Source: Arenimonas sp. SCN 70-307 (GTDB lineage Bacteria; Pseudomonadota; Gammaproteobacteria; Xanthomonadales; Xanthomonadaceae). From it: a stretch of DNA of 64,000 bases. The stretch's first letter is position 1, and each line of letters starts with the position of its first letter. The stretch is taken from contig NZ_MEDO01000018.1 of assembly GCF_001724815.1 (NCBI RefSeq), positions 1-64,000 on the forward strand, given 5' to 3'. A program made the position numbers and the translations under genes. This document shows positions 25,016 to 40,119 of the stretch, one piece after another. The notes below the pieces were generated by a model, which saw only the letters and a list, made by a program, of their open reading frames with translations, searched no databases and had not been told where the DNA came from.

Positions 25016-25804
25016 ATGGCGCTTGAACTCAGCGGGCGGCACGCCCTGGTCTGCGGCGGTTCCGAGGGCATCGGCCTGGCCACGGCCCAGGCCCTGGCGG
25101 CCCGCGGCGCCAGCGTCACCGTGCTGGCGCGACGCCCGGAGCGGCTGCGCGACGTCGTGGCCTCGTTGCCCACGCCGGATCCGTCGCAGCGGCATGGCCA
25201 CGTCGCCGCCGACGCCGGCGATGCCGCCGGCCTCCGGGCGGCGGTTGACGCCCTGGCCGCCGCGCAGCCGGTGCACATCCTGGTCAACAACACCGCCGGC
25301 CCGCCGGGCGGACCGGCCCACGGTGCCGACCCGGAGGCCTACGTGGCGGTGTTCCGCCAGCACCTCGTGGCCGGCCAGGTCCTGGTGCAGGCCGTGCTGC
25401 CGGGCATGCGCGCGTCCGGCTGGGGCCGCATCGTCAACGTCATTTCCACCTCGGTGAAGGAGCCGATCGCCAACCTCGGCGTTTCCAACACCATCCGCGG
25501 CGCGGTGGCCAGCTGGGCCAAGACCCTCGCTTCCGAACTCGGCCCGGATGGCATCACCGTCAACAACGTGCTGCCCGGCTACACCCGCACCCAGCGCCTG
25601 GACCAGATCCTGGCCGAGCGCGCCGCCGCCACCGGCAAGCCCGCCGACGAAATCGCCCGCGGCATGCTGGCGACGGTGCCCGCCGGCCGCTTCGCCGAAC
25701 CGGCGGAAGTGGCCGCGGCCATCGCCTTCCTCGCCTCGCCCGCCGCCGGCTACGTCAACGGCATCAACCTGCCGGTCGACGGCGGCCGCACGAAGTCGCT
25801 GTGA
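25016..25804 (+). CDS. Short-chain dehydrogenase/reductase, non-canonical active site
   Basis: A 262-residue SDR: GGSEGIG nucleotide loop at residues 13-19, NNTAGPPGG after strand 4, ISTSVKEP supplying the Ser, and C-terminal YVNGINLPVDGG. The YxxxK pair is replaced in NLGVSNTIRGAV, with Asn/Ser for Tyr and Arg near the Lys place. I recall a subfamily with LGxSNxxR that keeps this sequence, so it is likely functional in an altered way. The ATG at 25016 follows CAGGAG. A PilZ gene starts ten bases after the stop. Substrate unknown. Confidence 0.82.
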   Translation: MALELSGRHALVCGGSEGIGLATAQALAARGASVTVLARRPERLRDVVASLPTPDPSQRHGHVAADAGDAAGLRAAVDALAAAQPVHILVNNTAGPPGGPAHGADPEAYVAVFRQHLVAGQVLVQAVLPGMRASGWGRIVNVISTSVKEPIANLGVSNTIRGAVASWAKTLASELGPDGITVNNVLPGYTRTQRLDQILAERAAATGKPADEIARGMLATVPAGRFAEPAEVAAAIAFLASPAAGYVNGINLPVDGGRTKSL

Positions 25805-27003: not shown

Positions 27004-28449
27004 ATGACGCTGCGACTGAGCCACTTGATCGGCGGTAACGCCCGGGCCGCCCGCGACGGCGCCTGGCTCGACGTGCACGACCCGGCCACCGGCGAGGTCT
27101 TCGCCCATTGCCCCGACGGCAGCGCCGACGACGTGGCCGACGCGGTGGCCGCCGCCGAAGCCGCGTTCCCCGCCTGGTCGGCCCTGCCGGCCAGCGAGCG
27201 CGCCGCCTGGATGAACCGCCTGGCCGATGCGCTCGAGGCCCGGCTCGAGGATTTCGCCCGCGCCGAATCGCGCGACGCCGGCAAGCCGCTGGCCCTGGCG
27301 CGTTCGCTCGACATCCCGCGCGCCGCCGCCAACCTGCGCTTCTTCGCCGCCGCGGCCACCCAGTTCGCCAGTGAATCGCATTCGGCGCCCGGCGCCCTGC
27401 ACTACACCCTGCGCCAGCCGCTGGGCGTAGTGGCCTGCATCAGCCCCTGGAACCTGCCGCTGTACCTGTTCACCTGGAAGATCGCCCCGGCCCTGGCCGC
27501 GGGCAATTGCGTGGTGGGCAAGCCGTCGGAAGTCACGCCGGTCACCGCCTGGATGCTGGGCGAGCTGGCGCGCGAGGTCGGCCTGCCGGCCGGCGTGCTC
27601 AACATCGTGCACGGCCGCGGCCCGTCGGTGGGCGAGCCGCTGGTGGCGCACCCACGGGTCAAGGCGGTCAGCTTCACCGGCAGCACCGCGGTCGGCCTGC
27701 GCATCGGCGAGGCCTGCGCGCGTTCGCTGAAAAAGACCTCGCTCGAGCTCGGCGGCAAGAACGCCACCCTGGTCTTCGCCGACGCGCCGCGCGAAAAACT
27801 CATCGACACCCTGGTGCGCTCGGCCTTCCTCAACTCCGGCCAGATCTGCCTGTGCGGCTCGCGCCTGCTGGTCGAGCGCAGCGCCTACTACGAGGTGCGC
27901 GACGCCCTGGTGGCGCGCGCCCGCGCCCTGGTGGTCGGCGACCCGGCCGAGGCGGCCACGCAGATGGGCCCGGTGGTGTCGCGGGCGCACTTCGACAAGG
28001 TGATGGCCTGCCTGACCCGCGCCCGCGAGGAAGGCGGCCGCGTGCTCTGCGGCGGCGAGGCCATCCGCCCGGCGGGACGCTGCGCCGACGGCTGGTTCAT
28101 CGCCCCCACCGTCATCGAGGGCCTGGGCCCGGCCTGCCGCAGCAACACCGAGGAAATCTTCGGCCCCGTGGTCACCCTGCAGGCCTTCGACACCGAGGCC
28201 GAGGCCCTGGCCCTGGCCAACGCCACGCCCTACGGCCTGGCCGCCAGCGTCTGGACCCGCGACCTGGCCCGCGCCCACCGCGTGGCCGGGGCGCTCGAAG
28301 CGGGCATCGTGTGGGTCAACACCTGGATGAACCGCGACCTGCGCACGCCCTTCGGCGGCGTGAAGCAGTCGGGCCTGGGCCGCGAGGGCGGCTGGGAAGC
28401 GATGCGCTTCTTCACCGAGGCCAAGAACGTCACCATTGCACTGGACTGA
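27004..28449 (+). CDS. 2-aminomuconate 6-semialdehyde dehydrogenase
   Basis: A 481-residue aldehyde dehydrogenase of the 2-aminomuconic/2-hydroxymuconic semialdehyde type: SPWNLPLYLFTWK, FTGSTAVG, LELGGKN (general base Glu) and NSGQICLCGSR (nucleophile Cys). The C-terminus GLGREGG...ALD is typical. In kynurenine catabolism it oxidises 2-aminomuconate 6-semialdehyde, the ACMSD product, to 2-aminomuconate with NAD. The deaminase and dioxygenase of the same branch lie just downstream and ACMSD 9 kb further on, which supports this over a catechol meta-pathway role. The ATG at 27004 fits the family; ribosome binding site weak. Confidence 0.87.
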   Translation: MTLRLSHLIGGNARAARDGAWLDVHDPATGEVFAHCPDGSADDVADAVAAAEAAFPAWSALPASERAAWMNRLADALEARLEDFARAESRDAGKPLALARSLDIPRAAANLRFFAAAATQFASESHSAPGALHYTLRQPLGVVACISPWNLPLYLFTWKIAPALAAGNCVVGKPSEVTPVTAWMLGELAREVGLPAGVLNIVHGRGPSVGEPLVAHPRVKAVSFTGSTAVGLRIGEACARSLKKTSLELGGKNATLVFADAPREKLIDTLVRSAFLNSGQICLCGSRLLVERSAYYEVRDALVARARALVVGDPAEAATQMGPVVSRAHFDKVMACLTRAREEGGRVLCGGEAIRPAGRCADGWFIAPTVIEGLGPACRSNTEEIFGPVVTLQAFDTEAEALALANATPYGLAASVWTRDLARAHRVAGALEAGIVWVNTWMNRDLRTPFGGVKQSGLGREGGWEAMRFFTEAKNVTIALD

Positions 28450-28453
28450 ACCG

Positions 28454-29116
28454 ATGCCGCTGAAGGAATTGCTCGATCGCAACAAGGAGTGGGCCGAGAA
28501 GGTGCGGGCCGAAGACCCGCAGTTCTTCCGCCGCCTTTCGCAGCTGCAGGCGCCCAAGTACCTGTGGATCGGCTGCTCGGACTCGCGCGTGCCGGCCAAC
28601 CAGATCACCGGCCTGCAGCCGGGCGAAGTGTTCGTGCACCGCAACGTGGCCAACCTGGTGGTGCACACCGACCTCAACTGCCTGAGCACCATCCAGTTCG
28701 CGGTGGACGTGCTCAAGGTCGAGCACATCCTGGTGGTGGGCCACTACGGCTGCGGCGGCGTGCATGCCGCGCTCACCGGCGCGCGCGTAGGCCTGGCCGA
28801 CAACTGGCTGCGGCACGTGGCCGACGTGGCCGCCAAGCACGAGCGCCTGCTGGCCGAGGCCGAGCTCGAGTCCCTGCGCCACGCCCGCCTGTGCGAGCTG
28901 AACGTGGTCGAGCAGGTGGTCAACGTCTGCCAGACCACCATCGTCCAGGACGCCTGGAGCCGCGGCCAGAAGCTGAGCGTGCACGGCTGGGTGTATTCCC
29001 TGCTCGACGGCCGCGTTCGCGAGCTGGGCATGGGCGTGGACTGCCCGGCCGAGCTGCCCGAAGCCTACGCCCTGGCGATGAAACACATCCGTGGCCGCAT
29101 GGGGGAAAGCGCATGA
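28454..29116 (+). CDS. can: Beta-class carbonic anhydrase
   Basis: A 220-residue beta-carbonic anhydrase, the same length as E. coli Can. Zinc ligands Cys41, His97 and Cys100 and the Asp43-Arg45 dyad (CSDSR) are present. It converts CO2 and bicarbonate in the cytoplasm. It starts four bases after the AMS dehydrogenase, and its TGA overlaps the next ATG (ATGA at 29113-29116), so it is translationally coupled into the kynurenine operon. ACMSD and later pathway steps release CO2, which may explain the location. A simpler alternative is a housekeeping gene caught in a long operon. Confidence 0.95.
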   Translation: MPLKELLDRNKEWAEKVRAEDPQFFRRLSQLQAPKYLWIGCSDSRVPANQITGLQPGEVFVHRNVANLVVHTDLNCLSTIQFAVDVLKVEHILVVGHYGCGGVHAALTGARVGLADNWLRHVADVAAKHERLLAEAELESLRHARLCELNVVEQVVNVCQTTIVQDAWSRGQKLSVHGWVYSLLDGRVRELGMGVDCPAELPEAYALAMKHIRGRMGESA

Positions 29117-29544
29117 GCGAGATCATCCGCACCGATACCGCACCGCAGCCGGTCGGTCGCTACCCGCACGCGCGCCGCGTCGGCCAGCTGCTGTTCCTCT
29201 CGGGCATCGGCCCGCGCACCCCGGGCAGCAACGCCATCCCGGGCAACGTCTACAACGCCGCCGGCCGGCTGATCGACTACGACATCGTCACCCAGTGCCA
29301 CTCGGTGTTCGCCAACGTGCGCGCCGTGCTCGAGGCCAGCCACTGCCGCTGGGACTGGCTGGTGGACGTTACCGTCTACCTCACCGACATGCAGCGCGAC
29401 TTCCAGGCCTACAACGGCGTCTGGGCCGAGTACTTCCCGGACGTGAACAAGGCGCCCTGCCGCACCACGCTGGGCATCACCGCCCTGCCCACGCCGATCG
29501 CCATCGAGCTCAAGTGCGTGGCGGCTTTCCCGGAGGCCCGCTGA
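29113..29544 (+). CDS. 2-aminomuconate deaminase (RidA family)
   Basis: A 143-residue RidA/YjgF-family protein resembling AmnD/NbaF, which hydrolyse 2-aminomuconate to 4-oxalocrotonate and ammonia. [20 protein letters not shown] at the N-terminus and [26 protein letters not shown] with the conserved Arg are typical. It overlaps the carbonic anhydrase stop by four bases and ends one base before the dioxygenase gene. General enamine deaminase activity is possible, but the neighbours make the aminomuconate role very likely. Confidence 0.87.
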
Positions 29545-29545
29545 C

Positions 29546-30082
29546 ATGCTGCCCGCCCCGTTCAACCTCCAGCAGTGGATCGACGAGAACCGGCACCTGC
29601 TCAAGCCGCCGGTGGGCAACAAGTGCATCGTCGACGGCGACTACATCGTGATGGTGGTCGGCGGCCCGAACGAGCGCACCGACTTCCACTACGAGGAAGG
29701 CCCGGAGTTCTTCCACCAGCTCGAGGGCGAAATGGTGCTGCGCGTGCAGGAGGACGGGAAGGTGCGCGACATCCCCATCCGCGCCGGCGAGGTGTTCTAC
29801 CTGCCGCCGCGGGTGCCGCACTCGCCCCAGCGCCAGGCCGGCGGCGTGGGCCTGGTGATCGAGCGCAAGCGCCTGCCCTCCGAGAAGGACGGGCTGCTGT
29901 GGTACTGCGAGCGCTGCAACCACCCGCTGTATTCCGAGTTCTTCACGCTCGAGAACATCGAGACCCAGTTCCAGGCCGTGTTCGACCGTTTCTACCGCTC
30001 GCGCGAGCACCGCACCTGCAAGGACTGCGGCCATCTCAACCCGGCCCCGGCGCGCTACGAGGCCGCCCCCGGCGGGGCCTGA
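29546..30082 (+). CDS. nbaC: 3-hydroxyanthranilate 3,4-dioxygenase
   Basis: A 178-residue cupin dioxygenase that opens 3-hydroxyanthranilate to 2-amino-3-carboxymuconate semialdehyde. Iron ligands His48, Glu54 and His92 are present, with substrate Arg residues nearby ([22 protein letters not shown]). The bacterial C-terminal rubredoxin-like metal site is complete: CERC (121-124) and CKDC (158-161). Starts one base after the deaminase stop. Its product is decarboxylated by ACMSD encoded at 36486. Confidence 0.95.
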
Positions 30083-30277
30083 GCCGGGCGCGGTCAGCGA
30101 TGTGAAGCCGGCGGCCGGGGCGGGCTGCCACGGCGCGGATTTCAGGCCATACTACGTTCACGCCGGCCGCACGGCCGCCGCGTGCAATCTTGCGTTGCAG
30201 TGGGCCCCTGGAGGGGTCGCCAGAGGGAGCTGGCCGCGCCGCTGCACCGCCCAAGCCGACGAACAGGGGTAATGCTG

Positions 30278-33200
30278 ATGAAGTCCAAGCCATTCCATGC
30301 CATGGCCGCGCTGGCCGCCTTCTCGGCGGTGCTGCTGGCCGGGTGCGCGAGCACGCCGCAGGCCGACGCCGATGAGCGCGTCTCGAGCACCTACGAGCGC
30401 ATCCGCGCCGTACCCCTGACCGAGGTGCCCAAGAAGCACAAGGGTCCGCGCTACGACAAGCCGCGCGAGGCGCAGGAGTACTACATCAGGCAGCGCGTGC
30501 TGCCCGGCCAGGCCATCCCCAACGAGCGCTACCACGCCGCCCGCCGCGCCATGCAGCGCATGCCGCAGCTGCGGTTCGGCGGCCAGGGCCCGGCCACGAT
30601 GGTCGCCCCCGGCACGCCCTCGGCGCAGGCCAACATCTCGCCGATCTCGCCCTGGACCTACCTGGGCCCGAACAATGCCGGCGGCCGCAGCCGCGCCATC
30701 GCCATCCACCCGACCTCGCCCAACATCATGCTCGCCGCCGGCGTCGCGGGCGGCGTGTTCCGCTCCACTGACGCGGGAGTGACCTGGACGGCTCTGGGCG
30801 ACGCCATGCAGAACATGGCCGTGGTCTCGATCGAGTTCGCGCCCAACAACCCCAACATCGTCTACGCCGGCACCGGCGAGGGCTACTTCAATGCCGACGC
30901 CGTGCGCGGCGACGGCGTGTTCAAGTCCACCGACGCGGGCCTGACCTGGACCAAGCTCACCGCCACCAACGTCAACCCCAACCCCGCCAGCGACGCCTGG
31001 ATCTACGTCTACAACCTGCGCGTCGACCCGAACAACGCCAACAACGTCTGGGCAGCCAACCGCCGCGGCGTGCACCGCACCACCGATGGTGGCGCCACCT
31101 GGAACCAGGTGCTGGCTAAGAGCTACTGCCTGGACATCGAGTTCAACTGGGACGCCAACGTCGCGGTGGTCAGCTGCGGCACGCTGAACCTGGCCGGCGA
31201 GGTCTTCCGCAGTACCGACCGCGGCGCCACCTTCAGCACCACCCCGGTGCTCGCCGCACCGAACCAGTCGCGCACCGAACTGGCGGTCAGCAAGTCCAAC
31301 CCGGCGGTCATGTATGCCGCCGCCGCGTTCTACGAACAGAACGGAACCCAGAACTATCGCTTCCGCGGCCTGTGGCACTCCAGCAACAGCGGCGCGACCT
31401 GGACGCTGCGCGCCAGCCACACCGACACCAATCCGTTCAACCTGGCCCTGCTGGGCGACTTCGACTCGGCCTGCGACAACGACCCGCGCGCCCAGGGCTG
31501 GTACGACCTGGAAGTGGCGGTCGACCCGGCCGACCCGAACCGGGTCTGGATCGGCGGCATCGACATCTTCCGCTCCGACGACGGTGGCTTCAATTTCGGC
31601 CGCGCCGGCGTCTGGTACGAGGACGGCAACCGCCCGTTCGGCATCCACGCCGACCAGCACCGCATCGTCTTCCACCCCAGCTACAACGGCACCACCAACC
31701 AGATCATGTTCGTCGGCAACGACGGCGGCATCTACCGGACCAACAACGCCCGCGCCGCCGTCAGCACCTGGCCGACCTCGAACTGCAGCAGCGTGGTGAA
31801 CCCGGCCGTGTCCTGGACCGAGCTCAACGACGGCTTCGGCGTCACCCAGTTCTACCACGGCGTCGTGCACCCGGACGGCACCAACGGCCCGCTGCTGTTC
31901 ATGGGCGGCACCCAGGACAACGGCACCTGGTTCGACGAGAACAACGACCCCAACAGCTGGGTCGAGATCTTCGGCGGCGACGGCGGCTATGCCGCGGTCG
32001 ACACCAACGAGGGCTGGAACCGTTTCTACACGTCCTACCAGAACGGCAACTTCATCCGCTGGGTCTTCAACCCGGCCACCCAGCGCTACACCACCAGCAA
32101 CGGCACCACCGGCATCAGCGACGACGGCCTGGCCTTCATCACGCCCTTCGCGATGGACCCGAACAACCCGCAGATCCTGTGGACCGGCGGTTCGCGCATG
32201 TGGCGCACCAACAACGGCATGCAGAGCTGGGTGGCCGCCAGCGTCACCGGCATCACCGCCGCCAACACGGAAGTGAGCGCGGTCGCGGTGGCCCCGGGCA
32301 ACTCCAACCTGGTCATCGCCGGCACGGACGGCGGCCGCGTGCTGCGCAACACCGCCGCGCTCAGCGCCGGCTCGGCCACCGCCTGGGAGAGCCAGCAGCT
32401 CACCGCCAACGGCGTGATCTCCGAGATCACCTTCGACCCGAACACGCCGGGCCGCGTCTATCTCACCCAGAGCCGCTTCGGCCAGCCGCACGTCTACCGC
32501 AGCAACGACAACGGCGCGAGCTGGCTGCCGATCGACCGCTTCGGCCAGGCCGGCGGCATCCCGGATATCCCGGCCCACTCCATCGCCGTGGATCCGGACG
32601 ACAGCAACCGCCTGTACGTGGGCACCGACCTGGGCATGTTCGCCACCATCGACGGCGGCAACACCTGGGCCGTGGCCAGCAGCCCGCTGCCCAACACCGT
32701 GGTCGAGAAGCTGGTGTTCCTGAAGGACAACGGCGTGCGCAAGCTGGCCGCCTTCACCCACGGCCGCGGCGCCTGGATCGCCAATGCCGGCACGGTCAAC
32801 GCCGGCCAGCGCTTCGACGACGTGCCGCCGAGCTACTGGGCCTACCCTCAGATCGAGGCCATCGCCGTGGCGGGCGTCACCACCGGCTGCTCGGTCAACC
32901 CGCCGCTCTACTGCCCCACCCAGACGGTGACCCGCGGCCAGATGGCGATTTTCCTGCTGCGTGCCAAGTACGGCTCGGCGTTCACGCCGCCGGCCGCAAC
33001 CGGCCTGTTCGCCGACGTGCCGCTCAACGCCTTCTATGCCAACTGGGTCGAGCGTTTCTACAGCGAAGGCATCACCTCGGGCTGCGGCACCGACCCGCTG
33101 CGCTTCTGCCCCGAGAGCCCGGTGACCCGCGGGCAGATGGCCGTGTTCCTGCTGCGCGCCAAATACGGTTCGGCGTACAACCCGCCCGCGGCCACCGGCA

Positions 33201-33367
33201 TCTTCACCGACGTGCCGCAGGGTGATTTCTTCGCGCCGTGGATCGAGCAGCTCTACAGCGAAGGCGTCACCTCCGGCTGCAGCACCAGCCCGCTGCGCTA
33301 CTGCCCGGACTCCGCGGTCGCACGCGACCAGATGGCCGTCTTCCTCGCCCGGACCTTCGACCTGTGA
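30278..33367 (+). CDS. Outer lipoprotein with BNR beta-propeller and three SLH repeats
   Basis: About 1,029 residues. A lipoprotein signal ends LLAGC with lipidated Cys23. Residues about 120-840 contain at least eight Asp-box (BNR) turns such as FRSTDAGVTW, FKSTDAGLTW, YRSNDNGASW and ATIDGGNTW, typical of sialidase/sortilin-like propellers. The last 180 residues are three SLH repeats (FDDVPPSYWAYPQIE, FADVPLNAFYANWVE, FTDVPQGDFFAPWIE), each with a CxxxxxxC pair. The ATG at 30278 is preferred (AGGGG eight bases upstream) over the ATG at 30272. Its stop overlaps the TonB receptor GTG. Function unknown: possibly surface binding or a hydrolase; catalytic sialidase residues not identified. Confidence 0.83.
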   Translation: MKSKPFHAMAALAAFSAVLLAGCASTPQADADERVSSTYERIRAVPLTEVPKKHKGPRYDKPREAQEYYIRQRVLPGQAIPNERYHAARRAMQRMPQLRFGGQGPATMVAPGTPSAQANISPISPWTYLGPNNAGGRSRAIAIHPTSPNIMLAAGVAGGVFRSTDAGVTWTALGDAMQNMAVVSIEFAPNNPNIVYAGTGEGYFNADAVRGDGVFKSTDAGLTWTKLTATNVNPNPASDAWIYVYNLRVDPNNANNVWAANRRGVHRTTDGGATWNQVLAKSYCLDIEFNWDANVAVVSCGTLNLAGEVFRSTDRGATFSTTPVLAAPNQSRTELAVSKSNPAVMYAAAAFYEQNGTQNYRFRGLWHSSNSGATWTLRASHTDTNPFNLALLGDFDSACDNDPRAQGWYDLEVAVDPADPNRVWIGGIDIFRSDDGGFNFGRAGVWYEDGNRPFGIHADQHRIVFHPSYNGTTNQIMFVGNDGGIYRTNNARAAVSTWPTSNCSSVVNPAVSWTELNDGFGVTQFYHGVVHPDGTNGPLLFMGGTQDNGTWFDENNDPNSWVEIFGGDGGYAAVDTNEGWNRFYTSYQNGNFIRWVFNPATQRYTTSNGTTGISDDGLAFITPFAMDPNNPQILWTGGSRMWRTNNGMQSWVAASVTGITAANTEVSAVAVAPGNSNLVIAGTDGGRVLRNTAALSAGSATAWESQQLTANGVISEITFDPNTPGRVYLTQSRFGQPHVYRSNDNGASWLPIDRFGQAGGIPDIPAHSIAVDPDDSNRLYVGTDLGMFATIDGGNTWAVASSPLPNTVVEKLVFLKDNGVRKLAAFTHGRGAWIANAGTVNAGQRFDDVPPSYWAYPQIEAIAVAGVTTGCSVNPPLYCPTQTVTRGQMAIFLLRAKYGSAFTPPAATGLFADVPLNAFYANWVERFYSEGITSGCGTDPLRFCPESPVTRGQMAVFLLRAKYGSAYNPPAATGIFTDVPQGDFFAPWIEQLYSEGVTSGCSTSPLRYCPDSAVARDQMAVFLARTFDL

Positions 33368-35499
33368 CCCCCGCTCCCCCCGCCCGGCCGCCTCGGGCGG
33401 CCGGCGGGCGGACGCCGGCACGCCGCAAGAACCGCATCGCCGCCCTCGGGGCGGCGATTGCGTGTGCGCTGTGCGCTCCCGCGGCCCTGGCCGATGCCGG
33501 CGCCGGCCCGACGCTGGCCGAGCTCGATGCCGTGCTCGTCACCGCCGACCACTTCGACCGCGACGGCCGCAAGCTGCCGACCGCCACCACCGTGCTCGCC
33601 GCGCCGGAGCCGGGCCAGGTGCAGGTGGCGCTCGAGGCCCTGCGCGGCCGCCCCGGCACCTTCTTCCAGCAGACCACGCCCGGCCAAGGCAACGTGCTGG
33701 TGCGCGGCCTGAAGGGTTCGGAGGTGCTGCACCTGGTGGACGGCTTCCGGCTCAACGCGGCCTTCTTCCGCAATGCGCCCAACCAGTACATGGGCCTGGT
33801 CGATCCGCTCAACCTCGAGCAGGTGGAGGTGCTGCGCGGCCCGATGTCCACGGTGCATGGCAGCGACGCCATGGGCGGCGTGGTGCAGCTGGTGACGCCG
33901 TCGCCGCAATTCCATGACGACGGCGCGCGCGCCACCGGGCTCGCCAGCGCCTACTACAACTCGGCCGACGCCGGCCTGCACGTTCGCGCTGCCGCGGACG
34001 TGGGCGGAGAGCGCTGGGCCCTGCGTGCAGGAACCAGCCGCCAGGACATCGGCCTGCGCCGCGCCGGCGGCGGCGACACCCTGCCCGACACGGCCTACAC
34101 CAGCCACGGCAATGACCTTCGCGCGGCCTGGCGCGCCGGCGAGGCCGGAACGCTGGAGCTGCTGTGGCAAGACTTCACCCAGCCTTCGACGCCGCGTTTC
34201 GACGCGCTCAATCCCGGCTTTGGCCAGGCGCAGCCGGAGAGCGACGAGTTCGCCTTCGCCCCGCAGTCGCGCCGATTCGGCCTCTTGCGTTATCGCGGCG
34301 ACGCCCCGGCCTGGCTGGCCGACGAGATGGTGCTGCAGGCCGGCCGCCAGACCCTGGTGGATGGCCAGCGCAGCCGCAACCGCGGCTCGGACCTGCGCGA
34401 GTTCCAGCGCAACACCAGCCGGCTCGACGGCGCTTCGCTGCAGCTGCGTCGCCAGGCCAGCGACACCCTTGAACTGCGCTACGGCCTGGAGGCCTACCGC
34501 GACCGCATCGAGGCGCAGGCCAGCCGGCTCGACCTGGGCACCGGCCTGCAGTCGCCGGTGCGCGGCCGCTTCGTCGATGGCTCGGGCATGGACACCTCGG
34601 GCGCCTACGTGGTGGCCGACTGGGAAGCCAGCGAGGCCTGGCGCTTCAACGCCGGCCTGCGCCACAGCCGCTTCCGCACCCGCATTCCGGCCACGGCAAG
34701 CGCGCCGGCGGCGGAGGTCTCGGCCTCCGACCTCAGCGGCCAGGCCGGCCTGTCGCGCGCGCTCGACGCGGCCGGCGAATGGCGCCTGGTGGCCAACGTC
34801 GGCCGCGCCTTCCGCGCACCGAACGTGTTCGACCTCGGCGCCCTCGGCCCGCGACCCGGCAACCGCTTCAACCTGCCCAATCCCGATCTCGGGCCCGAGA
34901 CCGCAGTCAGCGCCGACCTCGGCCTGAAGCTCTCGCGCCCGGGCCTGGACGCCGAAGCCTTCGTCTTCGCCACCCGTTACCGCGACAAGATCAGCTCGGT
35001 GCTCACCGGCGGCACCACGCCGCAGGGCCAGGCCATCGTGCAGTCGCGCAACGTCACCGAACTTGAATTGCACGGCGTCGAGACGGCGGTGGACTGGCGC
35101 ATCGACGAGCAGTGGCGCCTGCAGGCCAGCGCCAGCTGGACCCGCGGCGAAGAGCAGGCCGCGGGCGATACGTACCCCGCCGACCGGATCCCGCCGGTCT
35201 ACGGCCGCCTCGAGTTGGGCTGGCGTCCGGAGGGCTTCGTGGCCTGGCGCGCCTGGACCGACTTCGCCGGGCGCCAGGACCGCCTGAGCCCGCGCGACGC
35301 CACCGACCCGCGCATCAACCCCGATGGCACCGCCGGCTGGGCCACGCTCAACCTCGGCATGGACTGGCAGGCCCTGCCGGGGCTGGAATTGCGGCTTGAA
35401 GTGCGTAACCTGCTCGACCGCCGCTACCGCGAGCACGGCTCGGGCCTGGACGCCCCCGGCCGCGGCATCGGTGTCGGCTTCACCTGGACCGGACCCTGA
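33364..35499 (+). CDS. TonB-dependent outer-membrane receptor
   Basis: A 711-residue receptor. The GTG at 33364 overlaps the preceding stop (GTGA) and yields a basic, proline-rich start then a signal peptide (AALGAAIACALCAPAALA). The plug shows LVRGLKGSEVLHLVDGFRLN and the conserved LEQVEVLRGPMSTVHGSDAMGG. The barrel ends in a typical terminal strand (GRGIGVGFTWTGP). Substrate unknown: the style fits haem/siderophore receptors, but coupling to the lipoprotein and the kynurenine genes could mean uptake of peptides or aromatic compounds. It may work with the SLH lipoprotein, as SusD-like partners do, though they are unrelated in sequence. Confidence 0.87.
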   Translation: MTPAPPARPPRAAGGRTPARRKNRIAALGAAIACALCAPAALADAGAGPTLAELDAVLVTADHFDRDGRKLPTATTVLAAPEPGQVQVALEALRGRPGTFFQQTTPGQGNVLVRGLKGSEVLHLVDGFRLNAAFFRNAPNQYMGLVDPLNLEQVEVLRGPMSTVHGSDAMGGVVQLVTPSPQFHDDGARATGLASAYYNSADAGLHVRAAADVGGERWALRAGTSRQDIGLRRAGGGDTLPDTAYTSHGNDLRAAWRAGEAGTLELLWQDFTQPSTPRFDALNPGFGQAQPESDEFAFAPQSRRFGLLRYRGDAPAWLADEMVLQAGRQTLVDGQRSRNRGSDLREFQRNTSRLDGASLQLRRQASDTLELRYGLEAYRDRIEAQASRLDLGTGLQSPVRGRFVDGSGMDTSGAYVVADWEASEAWRFNAGLRHSRFRTRIPATASAPAAEVSASDLSGQAGLSRALDAAGEWRLVANVGRAFRAPNVFDLGALGPRPGNRFNLPNPDLGPETAVSADLGLKLSRPGLDAEAFVFATRYRDKISSVLTGGTTPQGQAIVQSRNVTELELHGVETAVDWRIDEQWRLQASASWTRGEEQAAGDTYPADRIPPVYGRLELGWRPEGFVAWRAWTDFAGRQDRLSPRDATDPRINPDGTAGWATLNLGMDWQALPGLELRLEVRNLLDRRYREHGSGLDAPGRGIGVGFTWTGP

Positions 35500-35502
35500 C
35501 CG

Positions 35503-36462
35503 ATGGACCTGGGCAGCAACCTGCTCGTCGCCAACCTGCTTTCCCCCGTGGTCCTGGCCTTCGGCCTGGGCCTGGTGGCCCGCGCGCTGCGCAGCGACCT
35601 CGACATCCCGCCGGCCATCCAGGCCTACCTGTCGATTTTCCTGCTGCTGTCGATCGGCCTGAAGGGCGGCGTGGCCCTGCGCCAGGACCCGCCCGACAAC
35701 CTGTGGCTGCTGCTGGTGGTCACCGTGCTCGCCGGCCTGGCCACCGCCGCCTCGGCCTACGTGCTGGCCCGCGCCTGGCTGCGCGACGTGCCGCTGCAGG
35801 CCGGCGCCATCGCCGCGCACTACGGCTCGGTGTCGGCGGTCACCTTCATCGCCGCCCAGCAGTTCGTCGAGCGCCTGGGCGGGCAGCCGGTGGAAGTGCT
35901 GGTGGCCCTGGTGGTCGCGCTGGAAATCCCGGCCATCCTGGTCGGCATCGGCCTGGCGCGCGGCGGCGGGCGGCCCAGCTGGCACCAGGTGCGCGAAGTA
36001 CTGACCGGCCGCACGGCCATGCTGCTGCTCGGCGGCCTCGCCATCGGCGCGATCGCCGGCAAGTCCGGCGTGCAGGCGGTGGACGCGATGTACTTCCAGC
36101 TCTTCCAGGGCATGCTGATGCTGTTCATGCTCGACATGGGCCTGGTCGCCGCCGGCCAGCTGCGCCAGCTGGGGCGCGGCTTCGGCAGGTTGCTGGTATA
36201 CGCCACCGCGCTACCCCTGGCGCACGGCGCGGCCGGCGTGGCCATCGGCCATGCGGTGGGCCTGGGCACCGACGGCGCCACCGTGTTCGGCGCCATGCTC
36301 GCCAGCGCCTCCTACATCGCCGCGCCGGCCTCGGTGCGCGCCTCGCTGCCCGAAGCCGACGCCGGCCGCTGCATCACCGCAGCGCTGGGCCTGACCTTCC
36401 CCTTCAACCTCGCCCTGGGCATCCCGCTCTACGCCGCGTTCTCGGGCTGGCTGGCCGGCTAG
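35503..36462 (+). CDS. SbtA-type sodium-dependent bicarbonate permease
   Basis: A 319-residue polytopic membrane protein with about ten helices in two inverted halves. LLSPVVLAFGLGLVAR, LSIGLKGGVALR, AAHYGSVSAVTF and ASASYIAAPASVRASLPEA correspond to conserved parts of the SbtA family, first known as a cyanobacterial sodium/bicarbonate symporter. It starts four bases after the TonB receptor stop and precedes ACMSD by 23 bases. A bicarbonate role together with the carbonic anhydrase is attractive, but distant proteobacterial members are not well characterised and may carry other anions. Confidence 0.85.
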   Translation: MDLGSNLLVANLLSPVVLAFGLGLVARALRSDLDIPPAIQAYLSIFLLLSIGLKGGVALRQDPPDNLWLLLVVTVLAGLATAASAYVLARAWLRDVPLQAGAIAAHYGSVSAVTFIAAQQFVERLGGQPVEVLVALVVALEIPAILVGIGLARGGGRPSWHQVREVLTGRTAMLLLGGLAIGAIAGKSGVQAVDAMYFQLFQGMLMLFMLDMGLVAAGQLRQLGRGFGRLLVYATALPLAHGAAGVAIGHAVGLGTDGATVFGAMLASASYIAAPASVRASLPEADAGRCITAALGLTFPFNLALGIPLYAAFSGWLAG

Positions 36463-36479
36463 CCCACGCGGGCTAGAAT
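36459..36479 (+). promoter_or_regulatory. Inverted repeat and possible -10 before the ACMSD gene
   Basis: CTAGCCC (36459-36465) and GGGCTAG (36470-36476) form a perfect 7-bp stem that spans the SbtA stop codon. TAGAAT at 36474-36479 could be a -10 hexamer close to the ATG at 36486, but no -35 is convincing. It may be a weak attenuator or an internal promoter. Confidence 0.3.
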
Positions 36480-36485
36480 GGCGGC

Positions 36486-37493
36486 ATGCTCAAGATCGAC
36501 AGCCACGCCCATTACCTGCCCAAGCACTGGCCGAACCTGGCCGAGAAGTACGGCGACGCCCGCTTCCCGGTGATCCACCACGAGGACGGCCGCGCCCGCA
36601 TCTACAAGGACGGCAAGTTCTTCCGCGAGATCTGGTCCAAGACCTGGGATCCGGCCGAACGCATCGCCGACTACGCGCGCTTCGGCGTGCAGGTGCAGGT
36701 GCTGAGCACGGTGCCGGTGATGTTCAGCTACTGGGCCAAGGCCCAGCACGCGCTGGAGCTGCACCAGGCGCTCAACGACCACCTGGCCGAGGCCTGCCGC
36801 ACCCACCGTCGCCACTGCGCCGGCATCGGCACCGTGCCGCTGCAGTCGCCGCGCCTGGCCGTGCAGGAACTCGAGCGCTGCATGGACCAGCTCGACCTGC
36901 AGGGCGTGCAGATCGGCTCGCACGTCAACGACTGGAACCTCGACGCGCCCGAGCTGCTGCCCTTCTTCGAGGCGGCCCAGGACTTGGGCGCGGCCATCCT
37001 CGTGCACCCCTGGGACATGATGGGCACCGACTCGATGCCCAAGTACTGGATGCCCTGGCTGGTGGGCATGCCGGCCGAGCAGAGCCGCGCCGCCTGCGCG
37101 CTGATCTTCGGCGGCGTGCTCGAGCGCTTCCCGCGCCTGAAGGTCTGCCTGGCCCACGGCGGCGGCAGCTTCCCCTACACCATCGGCCGCATCGAGCACG
37201 GCTTCAACATGCGCCCCGACCTGGTGGCCACCGACAACCCGCACAACCCGCGCAAATACCTCGACCAGCTGTATTTCGACAGCTGGGTGGCCGACAACCG
37301 CGCGCTGCGCTACCTGCTCGACACCGTCGGCGTGCCGCGGGTGATGCTGGGCACCGACTACCCCTTCCCGCTGGGCGAGCAGGAGCCGGGGGCCGGCATC
37401 GCCGCGCTCGGGCTGTCGGCCGACGAGCAGGCGCGGCTCTACCACGGCACCGCGCTGGAGTGGCTGGGCCTGCCGATGTCGAGGTTCGAATGA
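36486..37493 (+). CDS. nbaD: 2-amino-3-carboxymuconate-6-semialdehyde decarboxylase (ACMSD)
   Basis: A 335-residue amidohydrolase-fold decarboxylase. Zinc ligands His7, His9 (DSHAHY), His174 (VHPWD) and Asp291 (LGTDYPFP), and catalytic His224 (LAHGGG), are all in place. It removes CO2 from ACMS, sending the pathway toward 2-aminomuconate rather than spontaneous quinolinate formation for NAD. Its last four bases overlap the kynureninase ATG, so the two are coupled. Length equals that of Pseudomonas NbaD. Confidence 0.94.
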
Positions 37494-38773
37494 GCGAGCT
37501 GCACACCGTCCCGGCCGAGGCGCTCGACGCCGCCGACCCGCTGGCCCATTTCCGCGAACAGTTCCTCATCCCGCGCCACGGCGAGGGCGAGCAGGCCTAT
37601 TTCTGCGGCAATTCCCTCGGCCTGCAGCCGCGCGGCGTGCGCGAGGCGCTGCTGCAGGAACTCGACGACTGGGCGGCGCTGGGCGTGGAGGCGCATTTCC
37701 GCGGCCGCCACCCGTGGATGCCCTACCACGCCGAGGTGCGCGACGGGCTGGCCCACATCGCCGGCGCGCACCCCTCGGAAGTGGTGGCGATGAACTCGCT
37801 GACGGTGAACCTGCACCTGCTGATGGCCAGCTTCTACCGGCCCACGGTGGAGCGGCCGGCCATCCTGATCGAAGCCGGCGCCTTCCCGTCCGACCAGTAC
37901 GCGGTGGCCTCGCAGGTGCGCTTCCACGGTTTCGACCCGGCCCGCGACGTCATCGAAGTGCAGCCCGACGAGCCGAACGGCACCATTTCCATGACCGCCA
38001 TCGAACGCGCGCTGGGCGAGCACGGCCACCGCATCGCGCTGGTGCTCTGGCCCGGCGTGCAGTACCGCACCGGCCAGGCCTTCGACCTCGCCGCCATCAC
38101 CCGCATGGCGCACGCGCGCGGCTGCGTGGTGGGCTTCGACCTCGCCCACGCCGCCGGCAACCTGCCCCTGGCCCTGCACGACAGCGGCGCCGACTTCGCC
38201 GCCTGGTGCAGCTACAAGTACCTCAACTCGGGTCCCGGCGCCGTCTCCGGTGCCTTCGTGCACGAGCGCCACGCCCGCAGCGACCTGCCGCGCTTCGCCG
38301 GCTGGTGGGGCCACGACCAGTCGACCCGTTTCAGGATGGGCCCCGAGTTCATGCCCACGCCCGGCGCCGAAGGCTGGCAGCTGAGCAACCCGCCGATCCT
38401 GGCGCTGGCGCCGCTGCGCGTGTCGCTGGAGCTGTTCGCCCGCGCCGGCCTGCCGGCGCTGCGCGCCAAGTCCGAGAAGCTCACTGCCTACCTCGAGGCG
38501 CAGGTGCGCGCGCGCCTGCCGGACGTGCTCGAGATCGTCACGCCGGCCGAGCCGGAACGCCGCGGCTGCCAGCTCTCGCTGCGCGTGCGCGGCGGCCGCG
38601 ACCAGGGCCGGGCCCTGTTCGAATGCCTCGAGGCCCAAGGGATCGTCGGCGACTGGCGCGAGCCGGACGTGATCCGCATCTCGCCGGTGCCGCTGTACAA
38701 CCGCTACGCCGACATCAGCCGCTTCATCGCCGCCGTCGAGGCCTGGGCCGCGCCGGTGGGAGGCGTGGCGTGA
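37490..38773 (+). CDS. kynU: Kynureninase
   Basis: A 427-residue fold-type I PLP enzyme that cleaves 3-hydroxykynurenine (or kynurenine) to 3-hydroxyanthranilate (or anthranilate) and alanine. PLP Lys243 in [24 protein letters not shown] with the PLP-binding Asp, and [11 protein letters not shown] are diagnostic. The ATG at 37490 overlaps the ACMSD stop (ATGA); its TGA overlaps the KMO GTG. An upstream in-frame ATG at 37460 lies inside ACMSD and is rejected. Confidence 0.96.
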
Positions 38774-40119
38774 AGCCGGCGGGCGCGCTGACGATCGCCG
38801 GCGCCGGCCTGGCCGGCGCGCTGCTGGCCACGCTGCTCGCGCGCCGCGGCTGGCCGGTGGAGGTGTTCGAGAAGCGCCCCGATCCGCGCGCCCGCGGCTA
38901 CGAAGGCGGCCGCTCGATCAACCTGGCCCTGGCCGAGCGTGGCCTGGACGCGCTGCGCCAGGCCGGGCTGCAGGACGTGGTGATGAAGCAGGCCGTGATG
39001 ATGCGCGGCCGCATGGTGCACCCGCTGGGCGGCGAGCCGATGCTGCAGCGCTACGGCCGCGACGACAGCGAGGTGATCTGGTCGGTGCACCGCGGCCGGC
39101 TCAACATCGCCCTGCTCGACGCCGCCGAAGCCGCCGGCGCGCGCATCCACTTCAACCAGCGGCTGGAGGGGGTCGACTTCGACGCCCGCATCGCCCGCTT
39201 CGTCAACGACCACGACCGCACGCGCCGCGAGCAGGCCTTCACCGCCCTGCTCGGCTGCGACGGCGCCGGCTCGGGCCTGCGCGCGGCGATGGCGCCGCAC
39301 GTGGAGCTGGGCGAATCCTTCGAGCCATTGGGCCACGGCTACAAGGAGCTCGAAATCCCGCCCGCGGCCGACGGCGGCTTCCGCATCGAGCCCAACGCGC
39401 TGCACATCTGGCCGCGCGGCGGCTACATGTGCATCGCCCTGCCCAACACCGAGCGCACCTTCACCGTCACCCTGTTCCTGCCCAACGCCGGCGAACCGGG
39501 CTTCGACGCCCTGCCCACGCTGGCCGACGCCCGCGCCTTCTTCGAGCGCGACTTCGCCGATGCGCTGCCGCTGCTGCCCGACTTCGAGCGCGACTGGACC
39601 AACAACCCGGTCGGCGTATTGGCCACGCTGCGCCTGCGCCACTGGCGCCTGGACGGGCGCGCGGTGCTGCTGGGCGACGCCGCCCACGCCATGGTGCCCT
39701 TCCACGGCCAGGGCATGAACTGCGCCTTCGAGGACTGCCTCGCGCTCGACCGCCACATCGCCGCCGCCGACGACTTCGACGCGGCCTTCGCGGCCTTCGA
39801 GGCCGAGCGCCGCCCCAATGCCGAGGCCATCCAGGCCATGGCGCTGGAGAACTACATCGAGATGCGCGACCGGGTGGACGACGCCGACTACCTGCTCCAA
39901 CGCCAGCTGGAAGTGACGCTGGCCGGGCGGCACCCGGGCGTTTTCCTGCCGCGCTACTCGATGGTCAGCTTCACCACCATTCCCTACGCCACCGCGTTCG
40001 AACGCGGCAAGGTGCAGCGGCAGATCCTGGTGGAGGCCACGCGCGGCCGCGCTTCGCTGGACGAGGTGGATCTCGCCGCCGCCGATGCGCTCGTGCGCGA
40101 AAGGCTGGCGCCGCTCTGA
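38770..40119 (+). CDS. kmo: Kynurenine 3-monooxygenase
   Basis: A 449-residue FAD monooxygenase that hydroxylates kynurenine at C3 with NADPH and O2. The FAD loop IAGAGLAGALLA is near the N-terminus. GGRSINLALAERG is characteristic of KMO, and LLGDAAHAMVPFHGQGMNCAFEDC is the FAD-pyrophosphate region (GD motif). The C-terminal helix (PRYSMVSFTTIPYATA) is also KMO-like. It starts with GTG overlapping the kynureninase stop, and its TGA overlaps the sbcB ATG. This shows that the hydroxykynurenine, not the anthranilate, branch is used. Confidence 0.95.
   Translation: MKPAGALTIAGAGLAGALLATLLARRGWPVEVFEKRPDPRARGYEGGRSINLALAERGLDALRQAGLQDVVMKQAVMMRGRMVHPLGGEPMLQRYGRDDSEVIWSVHRGRLNIALLDAAEAAGARIHFNQRLEGVDFDARIARFVNDHDRTRREQAFTALLGCDGAGSGLRAAMAPHVELGESFEPLGHGYKELEIPPAADGGFRIEPNALHIWPRGGYMCIALPNTERTFTVTLFLPNAGEPGFDALPTLADARAFFERDFADALPLLPDFERDWTNNPVGVLATLRLRHWRLDGRAVLLGDAAHAMVPFHGQGMNCAFEDCLALDRHIAAADDFDAAFAAFEAERRPNAEAIQAMALENYIEMRDRVDDADYLLQRQLEVTLAGRHPGVFLPRYSMVSFTTIPYATAFERGKVQRQILVEATRGRASLDEVDLAAADALVRERLAPL

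Follow-up and report, generated by a model that had tools for sequence, protein, structure and literature searches.

A kynurenine pathway leading from tryptophan to NAD was reportedly described for the Xanthomonadales by Lima et al. in 2008, and Can (YadF) is the housekeeping form of β-carbonic anhydrase (CA). For Xanthomonas, the kynurenine route is reported as the de novo source of NAD (PMC10907753). SbtA takes up HCO3-; the ion has been docked to S114, Y140, S324 and S327, and replacement of any one of these by alanine reduces transport to 10–40% (PMC8352866). We have analysed a DNA stretch of 64,000 nucleotides from Arenimonas sp. SCN 70-307 (contig NZ_MEDO01000018.1; hereafter the window), in which a kynurenine operon (27004–40119, + strand) contains both a β-CA and an SbtA-type permease of the Pfam family Sbt_1. 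No description of a CA–kynurenine or Sbt_1–kynurenine unit was found in the literature searched, most subscription journals lying outside its coverage.

Our tentative preference is for the view that CA and permease are a bicarbonate-supply pair, co-expressed with the operon and not there mainly for the CO2 that the pathway releases. An earlier note on this DNA had identified both genes correctly, with their coordinates and their place in the kynurenine operon, as family scores and matches in the Protein Data Bank (PDB) bear out. Its observations are confirmed in part, and its interpretation, that the pair could hydrate the CO2 released by 2-amino-3-carboxymuconate 6-semialdehyde decarboxylase (ACMSD) and later steps and move the bicarbonate, is supported in part: a role in bicarbonate handling appears the better supported one for both proteins, and dependence on CO2 from ACMSD is not supported. 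The two genes are:

28454–29116, + strand: β-carbonic anhydrase of the Can type (Pfam Pro_CA, 2.2e-53; NF007756, 282 bits against a cut-off of 251)
35503–36462, + strand: Sbt_1 permease of an SbtB-free branch, with the SASYIA motif (PF05982, 1.6e-88; fold; clade)

The CA scores above the cut-off of the carbonate dehydratase equivalog of NCBIfam (PRK10437, Can) and has the zinc and catalytic motifs CSDSR at residue 41 and HYGC at 97; CxDSR...HxxC, which we take to be the zinc motif of β-CAs, served as the criterion for membership. It is the single Pro_CA of the source assembly (2.93 Mb, 99.98% complete), from which α-CA (PF00194) is absent, and is therefore the only CA of the α or β class found there, the γ and ι classes being outside the search. 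The permease is likewise the genome's single Sbt_1 gene, with a PF05982 score of 297.4 bits against a cut-off of 27.

Queries with the CA, ACMSD, 3-hydroxyanthranilate 3,4-dioxygenase (HAAO) and the permease were run against 160 genomes of the order, with E <= 1e-20 as the threshold for ACMSD. The permease was matched in 35 genomes and lay inside a kynurenine operon in six (G000, G075, G048, G025, G005 and G062). In a named collection, from which the best 80 of 553 permease relatives were kept, 20 loci were in kynurenine operons; 19 of these are labelled Lysobacterales or Lysobacteraceae and one, L129, only Pseudomonadota. The 19 belong to Arenimonas, Silanimonas, Rehaibacterium, Luteimonas, Pseudomarimonas and metagenome-assembled genomes, the nearest named relatives being Arenimonas (the A. 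malthae permease is 90% identical). CA accompanies the permease at 17 of the 20 loci, ACMSD at 18 and both at 15; where ACMSD is missing, the contig ends 117 bp past the permease (L128) or no such gene lies between the permease and kynureninase (KynU) (L140). No kynurenine operon was seen at the other 60 loci, of which L165, L196 and L199 gave weak single matches. The gene order on whose conservation the earlier note had made its proposal depend is thus kept among relatives.

Two slots take the permease, mostly that between HAAO and ACMSD, and at L135, L136, L138 and (with a 0.8-kb gap) L065 that between a RidA-family gene and HAAO. In a quick tree of 105 rows, which left out eleven loci by name and any protein outside 280–345 aa, the kynurenine-linked permeases form one clade (SH-aLRT 99) of 23 rows, the 25 kynurenine loci comprising 23 distinct sequences (L063 is identical to L148, and L064 to L137). 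The sister of this clade is a group of four SbtB-linked proteins of genome family f11. Conservation across genera makes chance placement unlikely.

The remaining genes of the operon, which runs in the order AMSDH, CA, RidA, HAAO, two inserted genes, permease, ACMSD, KynU, KMO, are:

27004–28449, + strand: aldehyde dehydrogenase (ALDH), 2-aminomuconate 6-semialdehyde dehydrogenase (AMSDH)-like (Pfam Aldedh, 2.1e-170)
29113–29544, + strand: RidA-family protein, probable 2-aminomuconate deaminase (PF01042, 3.6e-25; PDB 6izh; position)
29546–30082, + strand: HAAO (NbaC) (NF009763 and TIGR03037, both above cut-off)
30272–33367, + strand: inserted non-pathway gene with sortilin/VPS10-type repeats and a C-terminal SLH domain (PF15902, 5.9e-23; PF00395, 2.4e-6)
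33364–35499, + strand: inserted non-pathway gene, TonB-dependent receptor, hemin-receptor-like (PF00593, 2e-39; PF07715; TIGR01785 under its cut-off)
36486–37493, + strand: ACMSD (PF04909; best PDB matches ACMSD, 2.6e-120)
37490–38773, + strand: KynU (TIGR01814, 468.9 bits against a cut-off of 246.4)
38770–40119, + strand: kynurenine 3-monooxygenase (KMO) (best PDB matches KMO, 4.4e-150)

AMSDH accounts for the top seven of the eight PDB matches listed for the ALDH (best 2.9e-134), whose best NCBIfam equivalog, 2-hydroxymuconic semialdehyde dehydrogenase, scores under its cut-off; the deaminase 6izh is the second-best PDB match of the RidA protein. A full catabolic set (HAAO, ACMSD, AMSDH, deaminase, KynU and KMO) therefore stands in one operon, with deaminase and AMSDH assigned by similarity and place only. 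NadA (PF02445) is absent from the source genome and was found in 12 of 14 control genomes, and tryptophan dioxygenase is encoded elsewhere in the source genome. Because NadA is missing while the kynurenine genes and the dioxygenase are present, the kynurenine pathway is likely to be the de novo NAD source of this genome (NadC was outside the search).

The CA starts 4 nt past the ALDH stop and its end overlaps the RidA start in ATGA; it is tightly coupled to pathway genes. The window permease starts 3 nt past the stop of the TonB receptor, a non-pathway gene to which it is coupled, and ACMSD begins 23 nt past the permease stop. In the insert-free close relatives L062 and L123, the permease starts 3 nt after HAAO, so its coupling to the pathway holds for the lineage. 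The translational coupling to pathway genes that the earlier note had claimed for both proteins is thus borne out for the CA, and for the permease in insert-free relatives only. The two-gene insert (30272–35499), which separates HAAO from the permease, resembles the host operon in GC content overall and at third codon positions; neither the sortilin/SLH gene nor the TonB receptor was matched at any of the kynurenine loci compared. Scans of the window for Rfam families and tRNAs returned nothing, and promoter and terminator scans gave no excess over shuffled sequence.

We then examined what the CA stays with. In all 27 surveyed genomes of the same family (f1), it lies on the HAAO strand within 600 bp of HAAO. 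ACMSD is present in only 10 of them, and the other 17 keep the CA beside HAAO without it. The eight ACMSD-free loci that were read have the order AsnS, CA, HAAO, KynU, KMO, ExoI, with no match to ALDH, RidA or the short-chain dehydrogenase/reductase (SDR) that in the window (25016–25804) lies between AsnS and the operon and accompanies the ALDH/RidA branch. In family f12, 15 of the 18 CA loci read have the order ALDH-CA-RidA (in G150, G012 and G110, about 1.5 kb separates CA from RidA), and HAAO adjoins this block only in G110, lying 10 kb off in G150. AsnS was seen at 16 of the 18. Three f12 genomes that lack ALDH and RidA (G053, G090 and G130) still have the CA within 1.4 kb of SDR, and in G041 (family f3), which has no HAAO at threshold, it is 3 kb from SDR and 4.5 kb from AsnS. 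In all four of these genomes the CA stays near AsnS and/or SDR, and the sequence read around it yielded no kynurenine gene. Two f12 genomes encode, between CA and RidA, a 460-aa secreted-looking protein of no assigned family (L120 6806–8188; L225 13619–15001).

We conclude that the CA is independent of ACMSD, since it is retained at sites without ACMSD, HAAO or ALDH/RidA. No single pathway gene is its constant partner, ACMSD least of all. Retention of the gene in the 17 f1 genomes without ACMSD and in the four without kynurenine genes leads us to reject a dependence on CO2 from ACMSD. A general link between CA and kynurenine genes was not seen either: outside the order, neither CA nor Sbt permease was beside any of nine HAAO loci of the class, several of them on short contigs. 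Nor does a simple rule that the CA is bound to the AsnS/SDR site describe the data. In G003 and G015 (f3), the ALDH-CA-RidA-HAAO block is intact, but the surrounding sequence that was read showed neither AsnS nor SDR; the CA has moved along with the block, a hint that it is tied in some way to kynurenine genes. The rule also fails in G025 and seven genomes of other families (G011, G021, G073, G006, G049, G058 and G104), where the CA stretch showed neither AsnS nor a kynurenine neighbour.

These observations bear on the proposal that CA and permease form a local loop, in which CO2 from ACMSD and subsequent reactions would be hydrated by the CA, and pH or carbon kept in balance by passage of the bicarbonate through the permease. 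Both genes do share an operon with ACMSD, here and at the 15 named loci, the CA did accompany ALDH-RidA-HAAO in G003 and G015 away from AsnS and SDR, and the permease could in principle run outward. The loop is nevertheless difficult to reconcile with a CA that persists where ACMSD, or every kynurenine gene looked for, is missing from its surroundings, with two genomes of the same genus (G116 and G121) that have CA and ACMSD and no permease match, and with the direction established for SbtA, which is HCO3- uptake (PMC8352866). We regard it as the least probable of the explanations weighed here. Co-occurrence with ACMSD, which the earlier note had proposed to survey, is thereby answered for the CA, which persists without it; the f1 permease occurs in 2 of the 10 genomes with ACMSD and 0 of the 17 without, numbers too few to decide dependence.

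A second possibility is that CA and permease are simply carried along, their positions being due to synteny and to a single insertion each, and neither regulation nor physiology tying them to the pathway. AsnS, ExoI and DUF2461 are syntenic neighbours too, and the single clade of kynurenine permeases means that the linkage may go back to one event. The slots that hold the permease also take unrelated genes: the sortilin/SLH and TonB receptor genes in the window, other open reading frames in L063 and L064 (both on the opposite strand) and in L138, and, in the same-genus genome G121 (L101 7612–12621), a 1669-aa YD-repeat, RHS-like protein in the HAAO-ACMSD slot, the identities in relatives being assigned by reading. 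Inserts in this slot are apparently tolerated. With unrelated genes occupying these slots, in the window as in relatives, operon position is weak evidence. Passive carriage would, however, leave unexplained the tight same-strand spacing of the CA and, in relatives, of the permease, the fact that in several genera the permease keeps to one of two slots flanked by pathway genes, and the continued association of the CA with ALDH-RidA-HAAO in G003 and G015 once AsnS and SDR had been left behind. On balance we think passive carriage unlikely, though it deserves serious consideration.

What the permease carries was approached through its structure. An AlphaFold2 model built from 62 aligned relatives (61 of the 80 named loci plus the window) has a mean pLDDT of 93 and a pTM of 0.91, and its best PDB fold matches in Foldseek are five SbtA entries (TM score 0.81–0.87), followed by bacterial ASBT. 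At the docked sites S111 and S270 are kept, and V137 and A273 stand in place of Y140 and S327; SbtA D144 and D325 are replaced by E and Y. The E, Y and A changes are common to all 33 aligned members of the class, none of which has Y140. The canonical residues are retained by four further copies from the order, three of which (in G051, G072 and G158) coexist with a copy of the window-type class. Because the changes are uniform and canonical copies exist alongside, this is a separate class and not a decayed SbtA. With two of the four docked residues different and no SbtB neighbour, the window permease is not a canonical SbtA by either residues or neighbourhood.

The crossover motifs A-H-[YF]-G-S-V-S, E141 and S-[ASG]-S-Y-I-A-A-P do not differ between 19 kynurenine rows and a further 43, the latter including PurK- and CA-linked relatives. 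The equivalents of the docked residues agree as well, position 137 being V or L in all rows but one. Beyond that set, G005 has GCVS, and TsaC/PyrC-linked members from the order have HYGSVSVGT and SASYIAVPA or nearly so; despite these few motif differences, the latter have the same residues at the places of S114, S324 and S327. The kynurenine rows are fixed, or nearly so, for other residues at 23 positions (including 138–139, 206, 209, 211 and 289–290), with such changes near transmembrane helices (TM) 5, 7 and 10.

The alternative raised in the earlier note, transport of an organic pathway anion, for which kynurenine, anthranilate, quinolinate or a similar compound would be a candidate, draws on several of these features. 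Two residues of the bicarbonate site differ, some clade-specific residues are in TM5, TM7 and TM10, the clade was found only in kynurenine operons among the loci compared, and bile acids, pantoate and auxin are substrates of distant relatives by fold, matches beyond SbtA including ASBT with pantoate and the PIN auxin carriers. SbtA is nevertheless by far the best fold match, and the permease shares its crossover motifs, HYGSVSAVT and SASYIAAPA, with relatives whose genes adjoin those for SbtB, PurK or CA. A switch to a quite different substrate should show at the crossover, yet there is no change of this kind relative to the sister group. Transport of a pathway anion thus appears improbable, and, like the CO2 loop, less likely than bicarbonate supply.

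The neighbours of the wider Sbt_1 class are consistent with bicarbonate as the substrate. Pyrimidine synthesis and TsaC use bicarbonate. Within 3 kb of 89 non-kynurenine Sbt_1 loci (92 less the duplicates L142, L143 and L145), related loci among them not being independent, we found SbtB at 73 (four of them canonical SbtA), PurE at 11, PurK at 9, β-CA at 7, TsaC/Sua5 at 6 and a PyrC-like gene at 6. Names are from Pfam matches of representatives, except for the PyrC-like protein, whose matches were confined to amidohydrolase families and which was named by reading. None of SbtB, PurE, PurK, CA, TsaC or PyrC-like was seen at 2.5–10 kb (about 844 kb scanned, against 412 kb within 2.5 kb), which is the fair control because the reference genes had been picked for recurring near the permease. 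PurK is a user of HCO3- (PMC10880623). Sbt_1 genes stand beside purEK at nine loci (L149, L151, L152, L156, L157, L158, L161, L179 and L195), including Verrucomicrobiota and Thermus, and upstream of tsaC at six (L072, L074, L078, L081, L083 and L089), five of which have a pyrC-like gene on the opposite side. It is possible that these arrangements reflect a general theme of bicarbonate supply in heterotrophs. Beside the kynurenine permeases, SbtB was found at none of the 25 loci (23 distinct; L128 ends 117 bp past the permease) and not in the window; the same search detected it at four distinct f11 loci (seven with duplicates). An SbtB-like protein gave no significant match in the source genome (best E 0.2).

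The bicarbonate-supply reading would run as follows. The operon probably serves to synthesize NAD from tryptophan and to break down any excess. The CA would be the housekeeping Can, hydrating CO2 to the HCO3- that carboxylases need; it may have joined the cluster early in the order and been kept whichever kynurenine genes stayed there. The permease would derive from a wide Sbt_1 branch elsewhere paired with SbtB and bicarbonate users, and in one clade, nearly all Lysobacterales, would have lost SbtB and entered the operon. It most likely imports HCO3-, without SbtB, and both genes would be co-expressed with the pathway. Three of the six kynurenine-permease genomes in the order sample have no Pro_CA (G005, 99% complete and in one contig; G048, 90%; G062, 87%), as would be expected if the permease can supply HCO3-. 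Across the order, Pro_CA is missing from 13 of 35 Sbt-positive and 17 of 125 Sbt-negative genomes (Fisher p 0.003, uncorrected for relatedness and treated as weak); the 13 include G057, which has only canonical SbtA, and G124, G129, G134 and G158, assigned from their absence among 130 positives. Cyanobacterial SbtA replaces CA in E. coli (PMC4275256).

Several points weigh against this reading. The permease lacks two of the docked residues and has clade-specific changes near TM5, TM7 and TM10. The CA moved with the ALDH-RidA-HAAO block in G003 and G015, and has neither AsnS nor kynurenine neighbours in G025 and the seven genomes of other families. A Labrenzia SbtA-like protein, its class not assigned, gave no HCO3- uptake in E. 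coli (PMC4275256). Furthermore, a cytosolic CA beside an HCO3- pump invites leakage, and a one-or-the-other pattern is described in PMC10880623.

A stronger form of the proposal is that the SbtB-free Sbt_1 branch is a heterotroph bicarbonate importer able to replace CA, and that in Lysobacterales its expression is tied, along with that of CA, to the tryptophan-to-NAD operon; we hold this doubtful. If true, bicarbonate supply and NAD/tryptophan status would be set together in Lysobacterales. More broadly, the neighbours of this large class of SbtA relatives (SbtB, PurK/PurE, TsaC, PyrC and CA) suggest bicarbonate for ordinary biosynthesis, not for carbon fixation, and the kynurenine clade works, if at all, without SbtB. 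Bicarbonate transport by such proteins would be relevant to the way in which heterotrophs acquire bicarbonate in air, and to the engineering of bicarbonate pumps made of a single protein. The locus also illustrates that suggestive company in an operon is no proof that a gene serves the adjacent pathway.

In comparison with known systems, the window permease shares Pfam family and fold with the Na+/HCO3- symporter of SbtA-SbtB (Synechocystis Slr1512, PDB 7CYE/7CYF/7EGL) and keeps equivalents of the Na+-site Ser322 and the substrate-site Ser114 and Ser324. It differs in having V, E, Y and A for Y140, D144, D325 and S327, in a short loop that replaces SbtA residues ~155–211, and in that no SbtB was found nearby or in the genome. 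The CA agrees with Can/YadF in equivalog score (PRK10437) and catalytic motifs and differs solely in its genomic place inside a kynurenine operon. As in the Xanthomonadales tryptophan-to-NAD pathway, NadA is absent and HAAO, KynU and KMO are clustered, whereas the window adds the full ACMSD-AMSDH-deaminase branch and two inorganic-carbon genes. Like the dissolved inorganic carbon toolkit reviewed in PMC10880623, the genome combines a CA with an Sbt-family transporter; unlike it, on a comparison that leaves carbon-fixation genes aside, both genes lie in one operon with an amino-acid pathway.

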